Origin: a virus
Virus record (IMG/VR): IMGVR_UViG_3300036814_000177
Location: 1 to 59,332 of that record
DNA: 59,332 bases
Direction: 5' to 3' (one strand)
Part shown: in pieces, positions 1,338 to 42,651 of the stretch
Numbering within the stretch: position 1 is the stretch's first letter
Layout: each line of letters opens with the position of its first letter
Program-made: the position numbers and the translations under genes
Notes under the pieces: model-generated
What the model was told of the DNA's origin: nothing
The model's database searches: none
What the model saw: only the letters and a program-made list of their open reading frames with translations

Positions 1338-1622
1338 CTACTCTTCTTCTTTTGTCATTTCAAGTAGCGTATCAAACCTGTCCTTGGGGACCATACCGAT
1401 CACTTCCGGCATGGGCCATTGGTGGCTCTCGATCACCACGAACATCTTACGGAGCGCGATCCTAACCTTGGCATCGTTCCCCTTGCGGATGGGCTTACCT
1501 TTAGTCCAGCCCGAATATGTTACCCGCGACACACCCAGAAATTTAGACATCTGGGTTGTGTTGAGCAGCATATGTTTCCGCAGTGCCTCCACCTTGGTGA
1601 AGTCGAGTGCGGGATTAGGCAT
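1338..1622 (-). CDS. Helix-turn-helix DNA-binding protein (Cro/CI-like)
   Basis: A 94-residue protein with a helix-turn-helix segment around residues 20-45 (TTQMSKFLGVSRVTYSGWTK), the pattern of XRE-type regulators that pick a major-groove site through the second helix. No dimerisation domain is recognisable after it, only a mixed C-terminal half with a conserved-looking WPMPEVIGMVP stretch. The ATG at 1622 overlaps the stop of the upstream gene by 8 bases, so it is co-translated within the replication operon. It is the only free-standing HTH protein of this type in the window, so it is the natural candidate for a phage regulator acting on the 15-17 kb promoters. That link is an inference; it could equally regulate host genes. 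Confidence 0.7.
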   Translation of the reverse strand: MPNPALDFTKVEALRKHMLLNTTQMSKFLGVSRVTYSGWTKGKPIRKGNDAKVRIALRKMFVVIESHQWPMPEVIGMVPKDRFDTLLEMTKEEE

Positions 1623-11175: not shown

Positions 11176-11343
11176 CTATTCTCCTAGTTTTCTAACATGA
11201 ATGTCGTCACCGTCCACATGGACCTTAACTTTCCCTGTCGCAATATCTCCAACGGTCTGCTCCAACCGACGTATCCGAACATGTTGCCCTACGATGTACC
11301 CCGCCGCTACAGCAAGGGCCACCGCCGTTATCCAATCAATCAC
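11176..11343 (-). CDS. Small membrane protein (55 aa, GTG start)
   Basis: A short gene that fills the gap between the VWA gene and the Nmad5-like gene. It starts at GTG 11343 in a GTGA overlap with the VWA stop codon and ends two bases before the next ATG. The protein has one N-terminal hydrophobic helix (WITAVALAVAAGYIVG, residues 4-19), then a basic stretch (HVRIRRLEQT) and a mixed tail (VKVHVDGDDIHVRKLG). The positive charges after the helix suggest that the tail faces the cytoplasm. It is transcribed with the MoxR/VWA set, so it may anchor that complex at the membrane; this is inference. Confidence 0.65.
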   Translation of the reverse strand: MIDWITAVALAVAAGYIVGQHVRIRRLEQTVGDIATGKVKVHVDGDDIHVRKLGE

Positions 11344-12521
11344 ATCATCACCGTTTCACCGAAGGGAGTGTCCTCTCCGCCCTTACCGTTGCTTACCCAC
11401 AGCACAGGGTAGGGTGGTGTATCCCCGTAGTCGGAGCAGTACAGGTCAGTCAGTACGATGCAAGCCACTGGCTCAACGCCCAACTCCTCCACCTTCTTGA
11501 AGATGGGGCTGAACGCTGTCCCTCCACCACCATGCATCTTGATGTCCACCTCGTCGTCCCTTGTGTACTCATCCACATGGGACACGCTACTGTCGAAGTA
11601 TATCACCGTGAGGGTCTTGGGCTTGTGGTCCTCTTGCACCACCTTAACCTCAGCGGCAAACTGAGCCAGTTCCGCATCACCGACAGAGCCAGAGCAATCC
11701 ACCGCTACAACAAGCTCACCCATAGCCTCACCGTCACGGCTTGGCAGGTACAGCCCTTGGGATATGAAGCGGCGATTAGGTCTGGCCCAAGTACGGCGAT
11801 CATCTTTCAGCTTCACCACAAACTGTTGCAGAACGTCACGCCAGTTTACCTTGGGGTTCAGCACCTCATCGACTAGCCTCTCCATGTTAGCCGACAGTTT
11901 GCCCATCATCTTAGCCGCTTGAGCCGCTTGTGCTACCTGCACCTTCATCTCAGCGGCGGCTTGGTCCATCTCCTGCTGAGTACCCTCACCGTCGAAGCAC
12001 TCATCCATTCCAGAACCTGTTCCGGAGCCTCCGCTGGGACCGTCAGGGTCGTCGGGAAGTATGGCGTAGATACCATCACTGGTTCCACCGCCCTCGTCGT
12101 AGATAGCATCGGACAACAGCCCACACTCAGGCATCTTGCCAATGCCATCATCAACCAGCAACTTGTTGATAACATAATCACCAGCGTGGTTCCACCGCTT
12201 GGGGCTACGCTCATGCCGTCGCCAGTTATGCTCCAACATGGGGTGGAAGCACTCATGGGCCACAAGGAACATCGTCTCCTCGTCGGTCAGATCGTCAAGA
12301 AAGTATGGGTTAAACTTGATCCACTTCCCATTGGTCCCGGCTGTCGGTACATCCAGCGACAAGATGAACGGCATGTTCATAGCCACCGTACCAACGAAGG
12401 GGTGTTGTAGTATGAGGTTGGTCTTGGCCTTAGCCAACTTCTTGGTCAGCTTGGCAAGCGTAGCCTCATCCGGCATCTCCTTGGGGTACTCAGGTATTGC
12501 GTCTGGATTAAGACTTGTCAT
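11340..12521 (-). CDS. VWA-like metallopeptidase-domain protein (DUF2201 type)
   Basis: A 393-residue protein starting MTSLNPDAIP. The N-terminal half has a zinc-protease motif, LVAHECFHPMLEH (H89, E90, H93). A Gly/Ser/Asp-rich linker (about 155-180) leads to a C-terminal von Willebrand A-like domain with the MIDAS start VVAVDCSGSVGD (D275, S277, S279). This is the standard partner of MoxR AAA ATPases, which load or remodel targets bound by the VWA domain. I chose ATG 12521 because GGGAG lies seven bases upstream; the earlier ATG at 12542 has no clear site. The MoxR gene lies upstream in the same operon. Confidence 0.85.
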   Translation of the reverse strand: MTSLNPDAIPEYPKEMPDEATLAKLTKKLAKAKTNLILQHPFVGTVAMNMPFILSLDVPTAGTNGKWIKFNPYFLDDLTDEETMFLVAHECFHPMLEHNWRRHERSPKRWNHAGDYVINKLLVDDGIGKMPECGLLSDAIYDEGGGTSDGIYAILPDDPDGPSGGSGTGSGMDECFDGEGTQQEMDQAAAEMKVQVAQAAQAAKMMGKLSANMERLVDEVLNPKVNWRDVLQQFVVKLKDDRRTWARPNRRFISQGLYLPSRDGEAMGELVVAVDCSGSVGDAELAQFAAEVKVVQEDHKPKTLTVIYFDSSVSHVDEYTRDDEVDIKMHGGGGTAFSPIFKKVEELGVEPVACIVLTDLYCSDYGDTPPYPVLWVSNGKGGEDTPFGETVMM

Positions 12522-12711
12522 TATCGTTCTCCCTGCTTTCAATTATGTCGTCGTTGATACGAAGGATAAGGCCAGCGAAAAACTCTCTGTCCATGTGGAC
12601 AATGAGCGTCTCCAGTAGCTGGCCCTTGTCGAGGTCGTGCATCCGGTCAGTCCACACCTGTATAGCATCAGGGTTGGTCTTTTTAACGAAGTCAAATTCT
12701 TCTTGTGTCAT
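12508..12711 (-). CDS. Small hypothetical protein
   Basis: A 67-residue acidic protein (MTQEEFDFVKKTNPDAIQVW) with a predicted helical core and a hydrophilic end (SRENDNDKS). It is coupled to DUF3150 by an ATGA overlap and to the VWA gene by a 14-base overlap. Its fixed place inside the MoxR-VWA cassette suggests a small partner of that complex. No family is recognised. Confidence 0.55.
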   Translation of the reverse strand: MTQEEFDFVKKTNPDAIQVWTDRMHDLDKGQLLETLIVHMDREFFAGLILRINDDIIESRENDNDKS

Positions 12712-13571: not shown

Positions 13572-13834
13572 TACATTTCTCCTAGAATTTTACGCTTGGT
13601 TTTCTCCACCACATTGTTGTCGTGGAGAACGTCATAAAACAAACTCATCCTCAGCTTCACTCTACACACAGCAACAAGTTGTGGATCACGCTTCTCAACC
13701 TGTTCCACAAACTTCTTACCGCTGTATGCATCGAGGTATCTGTCCTCCCCGTACCCTGCGGCATCCTTAACCGCACAGTACAGGTCGAACTCATCACCCG
13801 AACACTTGGACCAGCCTCTTGATCGCCCTACCAC
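13571..13834 (-). CDS. Small basic hypothetical protein
   Basis: An 87-residue protein with a GTG start that overlaps the MoxR stop by 7 bases. The central part is RDPQLVAVCRVKLRMSLFYD and the end is basic (VEKTKRKILGEM). No family is recognised. There is no convincing ribosome site, so translation probably depends on coupling with the upstream MoxR gene. Confidence 0.5.
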   Translation of the reverse strand: MVGRSRGWSKCSGDEFDLYCAVKDAAGYGEDRYLDAYSGKKFVEQVEKRDPQLVAVCRVKLRMSLFYDVLHDNNVVEKTKRKILGEM

Positions 13835-14811
13835 AGTACGTCTTGGTTGGCTAAGGCCCAGTCCTTGAACGCTTGTGTTGAGGCCAGTGACTCATCCCGG
13901 CGACAGGCATAGGACACCATCAATGCTCCAAACTCTTGAGGCATCCGGTTAGCAAACACGATGGCCTTGGCAAACGAGGCGTTCTTAACCCTGTGAGCAA
14001 TGGCTCCGGTGATGGCATACAGCGTGGCAGGGTCTTCCGGTACAGTCGCCTTCTCAGGGTTCATCAACAGGTTGTCAATATCCGGCAAGTTACGCTCAAT
14101 CTTGCGGAAGCCCACAAACTCAGCCGCCGCACCCTCACCAATGGCTCCCTTGAAGCACTCGTACTCAGCCTCAACGGACACAACGTCGATCAGGTCACTA
14201 ACACCCTCGACCCAGCTACGACAGGTCGGGTTAGCACTACGCTGAGGGTCGTAGTCCTGCATCAGACCGGGACGAAAGCGGCAAAAGGTTATCACACTGG
14301 GGTTAACATCAGTGTCCACCCAGTAGCGAGTGGTCACATCAAGGTTCACCTCATACTCAAGCTCGGTGTACCTGTTGCTGAGGTGTCCCAACATCCTGTT
14401 GACGCCAGCCCTGTCCTCCTGCCTGTTGCCAGTAGCTATGACTTGCACATTGGCAGGCAAGGCGTGTCCATGTAGCTCCCGCTGTTGGATGATGTTGGCA
14501 ATCACCTTCTGGATATCAGCAGGACACTGACCCAGATCATCGAAGCAGATGATGGCTCTGCTCTCAGGGTCGGTAGGCCACCAATGCGGCATCTTGTAGC
14601 CGAACTTGTCGTCGTCCACGGTAATCATCGGCATCCCGAAGTCCTCCGTCAGACAGGTTGCGGCATGGACATGGATGTACTCCCTGCCCTGCTGTTCTGC
14701 ACCCTGTTCCACAACGCTGGTCTTGCCGCAACCGGGCTGACCAGTGATGTACACGGCCCTGTTGATCGTACCAAGGTTGACGAGTTCTCTAAGTATCTGT
14801 TCACTATGCAT
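13828..14811 (-). CDS. MoxR-family AAA+ ATPase
   Basis: A 327-residue AAA+ protein. Walker A is GQPGCGKT (24-31), Walker B is IICFDDLGQ (D91, D92), sensor 1 is VQVIATGNRQED (about 123-134), followed by NRYTELEYEV and an HRVKNASFAKA sensor-2-like segment. MoxR ATPases form hexamers that work with VWA-domain proteins; here the VWA/metallopeptidase lies three genes downstream. Comparable phage cassettes are recurrent but their targets are unknown. It begins the coupled MoxR-DUF3150-VWA run; the 110 bases upstream hold only a small hairpin. Confidence 0.85.
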   Translation of the reverse strand: MHSEQILRELVNLGTINRAVYITGQPGCGKTSVVEQGAEQQGREYIHVHAATCLTEDFGMPMITVDDDKFGYKMPHWWPTDPESRAIICFDDLGQCPADIQKVIANIIQQRELHGHALPANVQVIATGNRQEDRAGVNRMLGHLSNRYTELEYEVNLDVTTRYWVDTDVNPSVITFCRFRPGLMQDYDPQRSANPTCRSWVEGVSDLIDVVSVEAEYECFKGAIGEGAAAEFVGFRKIERNLPDIDNLLMNPEKATVPEDPATLYAITGAIAHRVKNASFAKAIVFANRMPQEFGALMVSYACRRDESLASTQAFKDWALANQDVLW

Positions 14812-14867
14812 CGCAATCTCCTAGTAAGCTATCTGGCTCATCAGTGCAGGGTGATAATGCCCCACAG

Positions 14868-14886
14868 ACCGGACGGCTAATCCGGT
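14868..14886. other. Small hairpin upstream of MoxR gene
   Basis: ACCGGA and TCCGGT form a 6-bp stem with a 7-base loop in the 110-base gap between the 100-residue gene and the MoxR ATPase. No U-tract follows on either strand. It may be a weak attenuator or a processing site. No credible open reading frame is seen in the rest of this gap. Confidence 0.35.
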
Positions 14887-14921
14887 TTCGCCTTTCTCCT
14901 AGCCGCTTTAGGCTCTCTGCA

Positions 14922-15224
14922 TCACAGCGTCACCTTGCCGCTGACTAACAGCTTGTGTGCTTGGCTCCAGCCGTAGTCGGTGTCGGCTAACTGCTCAATC
15001 TCTTGGAACAGGCTCACTGTCTGGAACTTGACAGTGTATTTGCTGTCATGGTGTTCCTCTTGTGTGGCAATATCCATCTCAGTAACTCTCGAACCCTTAC
15101 GAAAGCAGGGTGCATCACTGGTAACAACCTTGAATGTGTATCCAAGGTCGTATTCACGTTTAGTGTCGTTCTCGACGGTGGCTCCGTCCTCTGGGATGAG
15201 TTTGATGTTATATCTATGGGTCAT
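14922..15224 (-). CDS. Hypothetical protein, first gene of the replication operon
   Basis: A 100-residue protein, MTHRYNIKLIPEDG at the start. It is mostly beta strands with acidic and basic charges mixed and a single Cys in SDAPCFRKG; the C-terminus is DYGWSQAHKLLVSGKVTL. No family is recognised. It lies immediately downstream of promoter P1 (15284-15312), with GGAG about 10 bases before the ATG, so it is the first product of the early operon. First early genes of lytic phages often act on the host, but nothing in the sequence shows that here. Confidence 0.65.
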   Translation of the reverse strand: MTHRYNIKLIPEDGATVENDTKREYDLGYTFKVVTSDAPCFRKGSRVTEMDIATQEEHHDSKYTVKFQTVSLFQEIEQLADTDYGWSQAHKLLVSGKVTL

Positions 15225-15283: not shown

Positions 15284-15312
15284 ACTATGCAATTTCCGGC
15301 GAAAATTGTCAA
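15284..15312 (-). promoter_or_regulatory. Minus-strand sigma70-like promoter P1 (replication operon)
   Basis: Read on the minus strand, a perfect -35 box TTGACA (15307-15312) and a -10 box CATAGT (15284-15289, four of six) are separated by 17 bases. Transcription would start near 15277 and leave a leader of about 50 bases before the ATG at 15224. The spacer carries TTTTCGCCGGA, which is shared with promoter P2 at 17127-17155, as is CAAACTTG at the upstream edge. Confidence 0.7.
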
Positions 15313-15368
15313 GTTTGCTGGGCTGGGTATGAGGGGTGTAAGTTTGAGGGTATTAATTATCTGTTCTT

Positions 15369-15707
15369 CTATCTGTACTATCTGTTGGGGTGCTTAACTT
15401 GACGCTTCAACAGCTAGTATACAATTGTTTAATACCAATGGGTTAGGGGGTGCAGTATATAGATTATATAGATTATCCGTGTTTTGAAACTAATCAGTGC
15501 CACAATTTCATACATGTTTGTTGATGCCAAATTCGTAAAGTTATGATTTGGTAAAATTTGTGTGTGACTTTATCTATTTGAACAGATAACTTAGATAATT
15601 GATATAAAAGATTACTACCTAAACCCAGTTAATCCATGGTCAGTACCAAACTTGACAGTTAAAGTGTTAAGTTAAAACACCCCCTCCCCAACAGATATTA
15701 CAGATAG
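15369..15707. other. Candidate replication origin: AT-rich segment between inverted repeats
   Basis: A gene-free, AT-rich stretch. It is bounded by a 22-base inverted repeat: 15369-15390 reads CTATCTGTACTATCTGTTGG followed by GG, and the reverse complement of 15686-15707 matches at 21 of 22 positions. Each arm holds two TATCTGT heptamers spaced 9 bases apart; single extra copies lie at 15358 (same strand) and 15582 (inverted). Inside are a tandem 9-base repeat TATAGATTA at 15458-15475 and a CCAAAT/ATTTGG dyad (15527-15551). Iterons around an easily melted core, next to the early operon, are what an origin or a regulator-bound control region looks like. I see no gene between 15225 and 15901. 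Confidence 0.5.
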
Positions 15708-15766
15708 TTGGCCGTAAAGTATCCTCCAACCTGTTGTAATATAACAAACTTATACATCTACTACTA

Positions 15767-15850
15767 CCTACCGATTAATGGTTCAGGTCTATTACCAATG
15801 CCTTATCGACCCTCTTTAATGGCGCACTCTGACCTACCGATGAATGGTTC
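15767..15850. repeat. Pair of 18-base direct repeats
   Basis: CCTACCGATTAATGGTTC at 15767-15784 recurs at 15833-15850 with one change (T to G). The copies are 66 bases apart, downstream of the minus-strand terminator of the leader mini-operon. They could be protein binding sites belonging to the same control region as the inverted repeats. Confidence 0.5.
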
Positions 15851-15851
15851 T

Positions 15852-15895
15852 ATAATAAAAAGAAAAGAAAGAAGAGGAGAGGCTTGCGCCCCTCC
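15852..15895 (-). terminator. Rho-independent terminator of the leader mini-operon
   Basis: On the minus strand, GGAGGGGC and GCCTCTCC pair over 8 bp (one G-U pair) with a GCAA tetraloop (15876-15895). A pyrimidine-rich tract follows (complement of 15852-15875) ending in runs of T. It lies seven bases after the last small gene (15902-15997), so transcripts from P2 should end here and not enter the replication operon, which has its own promoter. Confidence 0.75.
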
Positions 15896-15901
15896 AATCC
15901 T

Positions 15902-15997
15902 TCAGATGCGGTGCCAGTAGAACACCCAGTCTCCGTCTTTCCGGCACTTCCACAAGGTGTGGCCGGTGGGCAGCCTGCACACGAGGAGCCTACTCAC
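15902..15997 (-). CDS. Very small protein (31 aa), GTG start
   Basis: GTG at 15997 overlaps the stop of the 59-residue gene upstream (GTGA), and the frame encodes MSRLLVCRLPTGHTLWKCRK plus DGDWVFYWHRI. The composition (two Cys, three Trp, basic) is not random-looking, and the GTGA coupling is the same device used elsewhere in this genome. No function can be assigned. The terminator begins seven bases after the stop. Confidence 0.5.
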   Translation of the reverse strand: MSRLLVCRLPTGHTLWKCRKDGDWVFYWHRI

Positions 15998-16173
15998 TTG
16001 GCCACCTCGAGCTTGGTGCGGAGGGTGATGAGGGTGCTGATGTAAGCCTGCATCTCCCGTTTGAAGTCTTCGGAGCAATTCTCCTCAGCTTCGGTTTCTG
16101 CATCGGCGATCTCGCCGACAATGGTGTCGATGAGCAAGCAGCGCTCAATACTGTCTAGGTCTATGTGTGCCAT
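15994..16173 (-). CDS. Small acidic helical protein (59 aa)
   Basis: ATG at 16173 has a full Shine-Dalgarno sequence (TAGGAGGT) nine bases upstream. The protein (MAHIDLDSIERCLLIDTIVG ...) is acidic in its first half (EIADAETEAEENCSED) and ends in a regular helix (YISTLITLRTKLEVAK). No family is recognised. It belongs to the four-gene leader mini-operon from P2. Small acidic early proteins in phages often bind host enzymes or mimic DNA, but there is no motif to support that here. Confidence 0.75.
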   Translation of the reverse strand: MAHIDLDSIERCLLIDTIVGEIADAETEAEENCSEDFKREMQAYISTLITLRTKLEVAK

Positions 16174-16193
16174 GACGGCGCACCTCCTATGTA

Positions 16194-16215
16194 GGGGGGA
16201 GCCGAAGCTCCCCCC
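16194..16215 (-). other. UUCG-capped hairpin before RBS
   Basis: On the minus transcript GGGGGGAGC and GCTCCCCCC form a perfect 9-bp stem closed by a C(UUCG)G tetraloop, one of the most stable RNA hairpins. It lies 18 bases after the stop of the 59-residue gene at 16234 and about 7 bases before the next Shine-Dalgarno sequence. There is no U-tract, so it probably sets an RNA end or blocks nuclease rather than terminating. Confidence 0.65.
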
Positions 16216-16233
16216 AGTGTGATAGGTATGAAC

Positions 16234-16413
16234 CTACATCTGTTCGGGAGGCATTACACCATCGAACTGTAAGTCCATAATACGCTCGCCTGCACGGCGC
16301 AGGGACTCGAGCAGGTTGAAGCGTGTCCGTGCCTCAACCCAGTCGGGTCTATCGAACGTCTCAACGACGTCCTGTCGGGCGTCGAGGTCGTAGTATAAGA
16401 TACGAAATGCCAC
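16234..16413 (-). CDS. Small charged protein (59 aa), GTG start
   Basis: GTG at 16413 with AAAGGAG about nine bases upstream opens a frame encoding MAFRILYYDLDARQDVVETF, then DRPDWVEARTRFNLLESLRR and a short acidic end. The N-terminal beta strand (AFRILYYDLD), helix (DWVEARTRFNLLESLRRAGERI) and final strand look like a small folded alpha/beta protein. No family is recognised. An ATG four bases earlier opens a different frame with a less protein-like product and is rejected. Confidence 0.7.
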   Translation of the reverse strand: MAFRILYYDLDARQDVVETFDRPDWVEARTRFNLLESLRRAGERIMDLQFDGVMPPEQM

Positions 16414-16427
16414 TGCATTTCTCCTTT

Positions 16428-16461
16428 GAAAAAGGTTCCCCGGAGCGTTCTAGCTCCGGGG
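16428..16461 (-). terminator. GC-rich hairpin with short U-run between leader genes
   Basis: CCCCGGAGC (16438-16446) pairs with GCTCCGGGG (16453-16461), a 9-bp stem with a 6-base loop. On the minus strand it is followed by AACCTTTTTC, a short U-run, so it can act as a partial terminator between the 139-residue gene and the smaller genes downstream, lowering their expression. Confidence 0.55.
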
Positions 16462-16475
16462 TTCCAGTTTAGTCC

Positions 16476-16895
16476 CTAGCCGACTACCTTCATGAAGGCC
16501 GCGAGTGCCGCGTCTTCACCCTTGTTGACAGGCCTTGGAGCCGCCTTAGGCTTCGCGCCTTCAACCGGTCGAACACCGATTGAGACGTTGCCACGCTTCG
16601 ACAACCAGCACTCGAGGCCAGCCGCTTCCGCCGTGGTCACCATGGCCAAGACTTCAGCCGGTGTCCGAGACACGAACTCGTGTTCGTCACCAACGAAGCA
16701 AGGGCTTCCGGGGTAAACCGGCAGCTTCAATTTGGTGGCGTAGGCTACCAGCCCACGTACCGCTGCGAAGCCTTCCTCACTCGTCTCGATTGGGACGCCT
16801 TGCTTTGCGACAGTTAACCGGGCCGAGCTTGCTCCCATCAACGTACCAGTTTTTGAGGCCGGATTGTGGATGGTCGTGTGAGGTTTAATAAACAT
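16476..16895 (-). CDS. Hypothetical protein (139 aa) of the leader mini-operon
   Basis: A 139-residue basic protein, first gene after promoter P2. Residues 35-75 contain TSEEGFAAVRGLVAYATKLK and YPGSPCFVG, and residues 78-115 hold a helix-strand unit with SRTPAEVLAMVTTAEAAGLE and CWLSKRGNVSIGV. A Pro/Lys linker leads to a short terminal helix (GEDAALAAFMKVVG). No family is recognised. AAAGGAC lies about eight bases before the ATG, inside a small GTCC/GGAC stem. The long upstream leader suggests control at the RNA level. Confidence 0.65.
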   Translation of the reverse strand: MFIKPHTTIHNPASKTGTLMGASSARLTVAKQGVPIETSEEGFAAVRGLVAYATKLKLPVYPGSPCFVGDEHEFVSRTPAEVLAMVTTAEAAGLECWLSKRGNVSIGVRPVEGAKPKAAPRPVNKGEDAALAAFMKVVG

Positions 16896-17120
16896 ATTGA
16901 AATGTCCTTTCAGGGACTAAGGCCGTACCGCCGCCGCAATCGGAGGCGGCTTAGGCCTAATCTTTTCTTTCGCGCCCTAAACCAGTGTCTTGCGGGGCAA
17001 GGAAGTCTGCCGTTAGGCCTAGATTACTTCCGACCGTAGTTTTCTAAGGGTCAGCGTCTACCGGGGAAGGCTCGCCTTCTTGAAGTTCCCGTCTCTCCGC
17101 GGTGTGTGGTCCGTTTCGAT
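16896..17120 (-). other. Long structured 5' leader of the mini-operon
   Basis: About 225 bases lie between the expected P2 start and the ATG at 16895 and contain no credible reading frame on the minus strand. They hold the palindrome TTAGGCCTAA (16951-16960), a near copy TTAGGCCTAG (17013-17022), a GCCGCC/GGCGGC stem close to the ribosome site (about 16928-16950) and a weak GTCC/GGAC stem over the Shine-Dalgarno sequence. I recognise no known riboswitch class. Confidence 0.45.
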
Positions 17121-17126
17121 GATTGA

Positions 17127-17155
17127 ATTAAAGCATTATCCGGCGAAAAACACAA
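17127..17155 (-). promoter_or_regulatory. Minus-strand promoter P2 (leader mini-operon)
   Basis: On the minus strand a -10 box TTTAAT (17127-17132, five of six) lies 17 bases from TTGTGT (17150-17155). The -35 box is poor, but the spacer repeats TTTTCGCCGGA from P1 and CAAACTTG flanks both -35 boxes, so both promoters probably answer to the same factor. Between 17156 and 17353 I see no gene or other signal. Confidence 0.6.
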
Positions 17156-17353
17156 GTTTGGCTGGTTTCCGTGCGCTTGCCAAGCCATTGAAAGCATTGA
17201 AACATTCGCGCTGGCGGGGCGCGTCGAGGCTCGACGGGGGGCACTTGGCCAGTCAAAAACTTTGTACCCCCCATAATACTAAACCTCTCTCAACAAACCC
17301 CAAAAAATAGTATATGTAAAGTTACACGTTTTGTTCTTATTCCACCCCAACCC

Positions 17354-34328: not shown

Positions 34329-34664
34329 ATGTTCAAACTGATTCCGGTTCTTATGTTACTGATAACAGGTTGCGCAGCGGCTGATGCCGATTTGCCCACA
34401 CCTGTTATCGGCAATATTATAACGCTAAAGCCAAATCAATGTATGCCGACCAGAATTCTGGGGCCGTTGCTATCTCAGGAATACGGCGAAAAATTAACGG
34501 CGTCAGGTGTTCTTCAAGCCGCAAACATTCCGCTTATAATGATGCTGTTCACTTCTAAAGCTGGCTCATGGACGGTGACTACGACTTCACAAGAAGGACT
34601 TACTTGCGTCTTGATTTGGGGCGAAAACTACAAGGTTAATGCACCACCGGGGGAGAAGATCTAA
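34329..34664 (+). CDS. Lipoprotein of the lysis cluster (111 aa)
   Basis: Starts MFKLIPVLMLLITGCAAADA; the signal peptide ends in the lipobox ITGC, with Cys at residue 15. After the signal, a folded domain contains CMPTRILGPLLSQEYGEK, a hydrophobic helix (IPLIMMLFTSKAGSWTV) and a strand with GLTCVLIWGENY. The single motif 'W-V-TT-G-TC' is recurrent in small exported phage proteins. I chose the ATG at 34329; a GTG at 34323 is also possible. Lipidation would place it in the outer membrane near the spanin-type lysis step. Which lysis role it has is not clear. Confidence 0.6.
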   Translation: MFKLIPVLMLLITGCAAADADLPTPVIGNIITLKPNQCMPTRILGPLLSQEYGEKLTASGVLQAANIPLIMMLFTSKAGSWTVTTTSQEGLTCVLIWGENYKVNAPPGEKI

Positions 34665-41346: not shown

Positions 41347-42651
41347 ATGAACATTGTGTACGTCCCACCCCTACGGTCCCAGTTGATGGCGTCCACTGCC
41401 CTCACCCCCACGCAACACAAAGGTGGTATTGGTGCTATTATCGGTATCGTGGCCGCCATTGCTATACCCTTCGCAGCCCCCATAATTGCTAGTTCCATGA
41501 TGGTATCGATGGGTATCGCCGCATCTGCTACAGCCCTCTCCGCTACGGCCATGACCATCGGCTCCGCGATTGTGGGGGGTGCATTGGGCGCTGGCCTCGC
41601 TGCTATCACTGGCGGCAACGTCGCCATGGGTGCTATCGGCGGTGCTATCAGTGGTGGTATCAGCGGGTTCGCGGAGGCAGGGACTGCTGGTGGCGCTATT
41701 TCTGGCGCTGAGGCTAATGCGTTTATGGGTCCGGGCGGTGGCGGTTCTGTAGGGTTGCCTTCCACCCTACCGGTGACGTCGCCGGTGTCTCCCGCAGGTC
41801 TGGGGCCGCCAAAACTTGTAACCGATTCGGCTGGTAACACCTTCATCCAGCCAGCCACAAGCGTAGGATCAGACGCAGGATCTACTCTTTCAGGTGGCGC
41901 TATTTCTGGCGCTGAGGCTAATGCGTTTATGGGTCCGGGCAACCCTATGGGGGTCGGTTCTGTAGGGTTGCCTTCCACCATATCGCCCACCTTCATTGAT
42001 AAGGCTGCCAACTTTATCGGTGACCTCCCCAATAAGTTAATGTCCTCTGAGGCTCTCCAGCAGGTAGCAGGGCAGGCTATCACGACGGGCGTTGGCAACG
42101 CGATGGTTGGCGAACCCAACATGACCAACGAGGAGAAAGCCCGGATGGCTGACCTTGAGCAGGCACGGGCCTTCCAGAAGGGGCAGCTTGCGAAGAAGCA
42201 GGCAGTCTCTGACTCCTACTTGCAGCAAGCCGCCAGCACTAACCCGGAATATTACGGTCAGCAGGCTCTTACCGAGGAGCAGAACAGGCTCAACCGCGCA
42301 CAACAAGCTGGGCTACGTAACATCCGCCCGAGTGCTACCGGCCAACGAGCAGCGCAGGTGCAGCGTAATGCCCTACAGAAGTCTCGTTTGAGCGGGTTTG
42401 ATCGTGGTCGTCAGGAAGCAGAATCTAAACGCTTACATTATATGCAAGCTGCGCAGTCCTCCGCCCCCACTGGTGCGGGGTATGCAGGTAACATAGCGGG
42501 TGACCTGAAGGCCGCTGACCTCCGCTATAAACGCAGTGAGAAAGAATATAACGACTACGCTGGTATCCTTGAGCCACTGGCAGCAGACATCTTCTCTGTG
42601 GATAGTGCCGCGGAACGTGAGAAAAAACGTAAAGAGGCAACAGGAGAGTAG
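41347..42651 (+). CDS. Gly/Ala-rich membrane-active internal virion protein (434 aa)
   Basis: Residues 25-110 are a long hydrophobic Gly/Ala/Ile block (GIGAIIGIVAAIAIPFAAPI; AISGGISGFAEAGTAGGAIS) that could enter a membrane. An internal duplication follows: GGAISGAEANAFMGPG occurs twice (near residues 115 and 183) and is encoded by an exact 48-base repeat. Residues 255-434 are hydrophilic and Gln/Ala/Arg-rich with coiled-coil character. Podovirus ejection proteins of this type form the conduit across the cell envelope. It is followed by a lytic transglycosylase, which fits. Start ATG 41347, one base after the GNAT gene's stop. Confidence 0.6.
   Translation: MNIVYVPPLRSQLMASTALTPTQHKGGIGAIIGIVAAIAIPFAAPIIASSMMVSMGIAASATALSATAMTIGSAIVGGALGAGLAAITGGNVAMGAIGGAISGGISGFAEAGTAGGAISGAEANAFMGPGGGGSVGLPSTLPVTSPVSPAGLGPPKLVTDSAGNTFIQPATSVGSDAGSTLSGGAISGAEANAFMGPGNPMGVGSVGLPSTISPTFIDKAANFIGDLPNKLMSSEALQQVAGQAITTGVGNAMVGEPNMTNEEKARMADLEQARAFQKGQLAKKQAVSDSYLQQAASTNPEYYGQQALTEEQNRLNRAQQAGLRNIRPSATGQRAAQVQRNALQKSRLSGFDRGRQEAESKRLHYMQAAQSSAPTGAGYAGNIAGDLKAADLRYKRSEKEYNDYAGILEPLAADIFSVDSAAEREKKRKEATGE
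41689..41736 (+). repeat. 48-base exact direct repeat, copy 1
   Basis: Bases 41689-41736 are identical to 41893-41940 (offset 204, a multiple of three). Both encode the same 16 residues in the Gly-rich virion protein. A further shared 24-base segment follows each copy after spacers of 6 and 15 bases. Full identity at wobble positions indicates a recent duplication or continuing gene conversion. Confidence 0.9.
41893..41940 (+). repeat. 48-base exact direct repeat, copy 2
   Basis: Second copy of the repeat at 41689-41736, in the same frame of the same gene. Confidence 0.9.

Follow-up and report, generated by a model that had tools for sequence, protein, structure and literature searches.

Matched, lineage-specific spacers in two tandem promoters of an uncultivated phage group suggest a common regulator or repeated promoter copying

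Introduction

The DNA between promoter boxes is usually regarded as free to vary. In lambdoid phages, the two early promoters PL and PR share an operator (OL/OR) that overlaps the boxes, and its sequence varies between immunities. Short phage-specific repressor sites at early promoters are also described in two reports on the cluster A mycobacteriophages, whose stoperators are distributed across the genome (PMC6550527, PMC9283540). The early promoters of T4 are host-polymerase promoters with consensus sequence beyond the standard boxes, a single consensus being common to all of them (PMC2988021). Here, we describe a large uncultivated phage group in which the inter-box DNA is the variable yet internally matched part of two conserved promoters. 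The matched spacer pair suggests either a common regulator or repeated copying of one promoter onto the other.

Results

Genome layout and the two promoters

The window, the whole stretch of DNA that we analysed, comprises all 59,332 bases of a virus record. Its two ends share a 150-base repeat (99% identity), so it probably represents an entire phage genome assembled as a circle. A DNA search returned no named cultivated relatives, and the best TerL match was 43%. Leftward genes on the left side encode a primase/helicase-like protein, DNA polymerase A, a SNF2-type helicase, an exonuclease and an AAA ATPase, while the structural genes lie on the right side and run rightward. No RNA polymerase match was found among the proteins scanned, which were a subset of the ORFs. 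Promoters P1 and P2 lie where the leftward and rightward genome halves meet.

P1 (15284..15312, minus strand) reads TTGACA-ATTTTCGCCGGAAATTG-CATAGT with a 17-bp spacer and is located about 60 nt upstream of its first gene, a 100-aa ORF (14922..15224, minus strand) without a credible family match. The P1 operon continues with the AAA ATPase gene (13828..14811, minus strand; phrog_1297) and a 400-aa gene (11340..12542, minus strand; phrog_1314), which may be of the VWA type according to our own reading of its sequence rather than a domain match. P2 (17127..17155, minus strand) reads TTGTGT-TTTTCGCCGGATAATGC-TTTAAT, also with a 17-bp spacer, and has an extended -10 (TGC). The first gene downstream of P2 is a 139-aa ORF (16476..16895, minus strand) without a family match, and a terminator-like hairpin is predicted from the sequence 3' of this short operon (15876..15895, minus strand).

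Several other elements were observed in the window. An Rfam Hammerhead_II ribozyme match (14827-14893, minus strand; 40.3 bits, above the gathering score) lies between the 100-aa ORF and the AAA gene, and thus inside the expected P1 transcript. Further matches occur at or near the same site upstream of the AAA gene in relatives L013 (two), L018, L023, L025, L036 (two), L041 and L048. G+C-rich hairpins at 16438-16461 and 16196-16218 directly precede the ribosome-binding sites of small P2-operon genes, and near-identical hairpins recur before successive genes in L014, L029 and L036. The interval from the TerS operon to P2 holds a noncoding element, CCCCCATATAAGTAAACCTCTCATAACAAGACCCAAAAAA...ACGTGTAAAG (17267-17321; about 50 bp), which is strongly conserved in about 45 relatives, far above the P1 and P2 spacers, and has diverged in the window; we can offer only guesses (a promoter or a packaging site) as to its role. 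An identical 48-nt direct repeat (41689-41736 and 41893-41940) lies inside a gene of the structural region.

Both promoters are conserved in relatives

Relatives were collected by protein searches, which yielded 26 loci via the AAA gene and 80 via TerL (TerL identity 77-100%). Their common layout has TerS and TerL on one side, separated by a few kilobases from the AAA operon on the other. At positions corresponding to P1 and P2, the relatives carry a pair of leftward promoters, each with a TTGACA-like box and a 17-bp spacer. The pattern TTGACA-17-NANNNT that is kept across these orthologous sites corresponds to hexamers at -35 and -10 that are 16-18 bp apart, and the -35 hexamer is retained in P1 as well as in the majority of P2 sites. 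The nearest relatives retain TTGACA and a T-rich spacer start in P1, and the extended -10 followed by TTCAATCATCGAAACG in P2. In the window, the conserved sequence 3' of the P2 -10 is TCAATCATCGAAACGG (17111..17126, minus strand), which is kept in relatives, unlike the spacer. The hexamers are conserved between phages, whereas the spacers are specific to each lineage. As orthologous sites, boxes and spacing are all kept, there is good sequence evidence that P1 and P2 are real, conserved sigma70-type promoters. They would act as tandem, same-strand promoters for the host sigma70-type RNA polymerase and together drive the leftward half of the genome, with P2 serving the short first operon and P1 the long replication operon.

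P1 and P2 of this phage share spacer and flank sequence

The original prediction was that P1 and P2 share sequence in the spacer and at the -35 edge, and this was borne out: TTTTCGCCGGA lies inside both 17-bp spacers, and CAAACTTG lies across the 5' edge of both -35 boxes. Its description of P1 as having a perfect -35 and a weak -10 (TTGACA/CATAGT) also holds, whereas P2 is not the clean reverse that it was said to be, with 5/6 positions in the -10 (TTTAAT) and 3/6 in a weak -35 (TTGTGT). The exact 11-mer TTTTCGCCGGA occurs at 15295-15305 and 17139-17149 only in the whole 59-kb genome. No third full copy of the motif was found in this genome; there are near matches at 34482 and 34617, but neither has a matching CAAACTTG arm. 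The best gapped alignment of P1 with P2, CCAG-CAAACTTG...TTTTCGCCGGA...TGC, covers about 34 columns with a score of 29 and is the top match of either promoter genome-wide; only 10 of 19,805 random 115-bp pairs scored as high. It pairs CCAGCAAACTTGACAATTTTCGCCGGAAATTGC at P1 (15289..15321, minus strand) with CCAGCCAAACTTGTGTTTTTCGCCGGATAATGC at P2 (17133..17165, minus strand). Relative to the hexamers, the shared block is offset by 1 bp, with ACAA in P1 and TGT in P2 between CAAACTTG and the block. The two spacers of this phage agree at 14 of 17 positions, and as none of 994 comparisons between P1 spacers and the P2 spacers of other lineages reached 13/17, chance is a very unlikely source of the match. 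Only the inner block of P2 resembles P1, the P2 flanks matching the P2 sites of relatives. The P1 spacer is also spanned by an imperfect 19-bp inverted repeat, CAATTTTCGCCGGAAATTG (15290..15308, minus strand), whose score is reached by about 1% of same-phage background windows. This repeat, a possible operator, is missing from P2.

Apart from same-phage contigs, a search of all viral contigs returned four contigs with one near-identical context and isolated single matches, which rules against a wide spread of this exact motif. Among the relatives, it is missing from P1 and P2 outside the near-identical same-phage contigs L002, L010 and L011. The original prediction had named such an absence as grounds for rejection; taken literally, this is what we found, but in several relatives these two sites hold matched motifs of another sequence. 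Strain variation is uninformative here, as three contigs (L010, L002 and L038) show no difference from the window over the compared stretch and the two differences in L011 are both outside the promoters.

Spacers are matched within phages across the group

Own-pair matching was quantified in a curated set of 33 loci in 18 groups. Sites were picked by position and box score; the choice was partly manual, a few loci taking the second-ranked site or one just beyond the scanned range, and the lineage grouping was manual and checked in two ways. Spacer identity within own pairs was 8.38/17, against 5.91/17 for cross-phage pairs, and none of 20,000 permutations was as high. This excess persisted when sites were chosen fully automatically, when this phage was left out, and when 12 tree clades were used. 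When compared with composition-matched shuffled spacers, own pairs had a mean z of 1.77 (t 3.7, n = 18) and cross-lineage pairs one of 0.06. The excess was present in the spacer, flank, -10 and downstream sequence, and there was none in the -35 hexamer.

Matching is strong in roughly a third of the lineages and weak or absent in more than half, including the nearest relatives (L041, L044, L045, L048 and L049). P1 and P2 are near copies of each other, and unlike those of other phages, in L029, L031 and L032 (TTCTGGCCTAG), in L070, L076, L084, L101, L102 and L111 (GAAAAAATTTTTTC type) and in L089, with weaker cases in L094, L095 and L107. An extra scan for members of the L070 group returned near-identical contigs only. 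Strong matching appears at about five separate places on the TerL tree, and this scatter indicates that it was gained or lost several times. Near tree neighbours can carry unrelated spacers, and the pair of L106 is unmatched though this locus falls inside the L070 group. The flank differs jointly in both promoters of L101, L102 and L111, which have AGAA where their sister phages have AAAC. Palindromes centred between the boxes are over-represented in P1 spacers (t 3.4 under one scoring scheme, with several offsets examined); the same test revealed no enrichment in P2 spacers.

Discussion

Host polymerase, promoter copying or a shared control site

One way in which both promoters might converge without any extra protein is optimisation of spacer and flank for the sigma factor or the polymerase alpha subunits of a particular host. 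The AAC directly 5' of TTGACA, conserved nearly as well as the hexamer itself in both promoters and across lineages, fits such tuning, and the extra consensus regions of T4 early promoters have been interpreted as RNA-polymerase optimisation (PMC2988021). However, an identical 11-mer exceeds what polymerase preference needs, near tree neighbours have unrelated spacers, and the spacer similarity remains after base composition is controlled for. We therefore regard this explanation as improbable.

The reading that we favour, to which we assign a probability of roughly 45%, is that P1 and P2 are a co-regulated sigma70-type pair and that their inter-box DNA holds a control site which they share and which evolves rapidly. 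A single DNA-binding factor, specific to the lineage, would read the matched spacer in both promoters; it would most likely be encoded by the phage and act as a repressor or modulator by occupying the inter-box gap, so that both operons would be controlled jointly. P2 would have been realigned to the P1 sequence several times. The binding of any factor at this site is inferred. Such a control site would account for sequence that is private to each phage yet matched within it, for the palindrome excess in P1, for the flank difference common to both promoters of L101, L102 and L111, and for the short P1-like block in the otherwise P2-type promoter of this phage. The 1-bp shift of the block relative to the boxes would be tolerable for a repressor. 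Several findings count against a control site: more than half of the lineages show weak matching or none, the P1 palindrome is not repeated in P2, the repeats in L074, L030, L082 and L109 extend over the bulk of a promoter, which is what plain duplication would produce, and there is no covariation between the spacer and the obvious helix-turn-helix (HTH) candidate.

Those same repeats lend weight to a close rival, which we consider quite possible: recurrent short-tract recombination or duplication could place one promoter onto or beside another, in which case the match would reflect recent copying without a shared regulator. L074 has two P2 copies matching at about 55/58 bp, L030 has three copies of a single promoter cassette, in L082 and L109 the AAA gene is immediately preceded by a copy of P1, and in the L070 group the match extends beyond the -10 into the transcribed region. 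In this phage, however, a short inner block has P2-type flanks on both sides, which is short for homologous exchange and hard to obtain by copying of long tracts. The palindrome enrichment in P1 spacers is likewise not foreseen by copying alone. The family-wide own-pair matching supports the general idea in the original prediction that the spacers carry information common to both promoters, but copying is a close alternative to the binding protein that it invoked. The two processes are compatible: a match created by copying could then be maintained by a regulator. A more specific version of the shared control site, a fast-evolving repressor-operator code located between the boxes of a tandem promoter pair, in which P2 would have been brought back to the P1 sequence repeatedly, seems doubtful; if true, it would be a same-strand counterpart of lambdoid immunity divergence.

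The conserved HTH protein and the gap upstream of P1

The HTH candidate is a 94-aa protein encoded at the far end of the P1 operon (1338..1622, minus strand), with a sub-threshold HTH_3 match (E 0.0026). It was found in all 10 relatives of at least 37 kb and in four shorter ones, and the absences are solely in records that may be fragments; its gene belongs to the conserved core. No protein in the named-phage collection matched it, and its likeness to the P22 C2 repressor is weak and not significant (E 0.4). According to the original prediction, this protein might bind the shared spacer and close a feedback loop. Its presence in the P1 operon, its HTH_3 similarity and its conservation speak for this idea. 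However, the recognition helix VSRMTYYGWVKG is identical in L058, L014, L106, L076, L070 and L107, while the P1 spacers of the first two share only 2-5 of 17 positions with those of the remaining four. As a constant helix would be expected to read a constant site, the protein is unlikely to be the reader of the spacer, and the feedback loop, left unsupported, is very improbable. A correlation between HTH and P1 spacer similarity was dropped as support, since shared ancestry explains it.

Constant repeats are present nearby. The noncoding gap upstream of P1 (15320..15830) contains inverted clusters of TATCTGT (15358, 15370, 15379) and ACAGATA (15582, 15691, 15700), and in relatives the same place holds ACTATCTA repeats, with 73 copies against 1.4 expected in 22 relatives and many copies in most of them. 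These repeats would fit a constant helix better than the spacers do, and our guess is that they are its more natural target. The gap is a possible replication origin or regulator-binding region. The same gap upstream of P1 has a 19-nt direct repeat, ACCTACCGATTAATGGTTC, at 15766-15784 and 15832-15850 (66 nt from start to start).

Comparison with known systems

If the spacers do hold a control site, these phages would offer a ready comparative set for regulator-site coevolution, and a way into the control of early genes in phages without a close named relative in the searched collection. P1 and P2 resemble the lambdoid PL/PR-OL/OR arrangement in that one sequence is found at two promoters within a phage and differs between phages. 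They differ from it in standing in tandem on one strand, in having a clear palindrome only in P1, in that no repressor gene was recognised beside them, and in that the helix of the 94-aa HTH protein does not covary with the site. In comparison with the cluster A phages, the short phage-specific sites at promoters are alike, although a repressor is only proposed here, and unlike the stoperators the full motif occurs twice in 59 kb rather than genome-wide. P1 and P2 share with T4 early promoters a host-type architecture with extra sequence features outside the boxes, which in our phages are private to each lineage. In T4-type middle promoters, the -35 is replaced by an activator box centred at -30, whereas here the -35 hexamer is conserved in all but a minority of P2 sites. 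Without claiming membership of the lambdoid or cluster A systems, we consider that P1 and P2 behave, at most, like a shared-operator pair.
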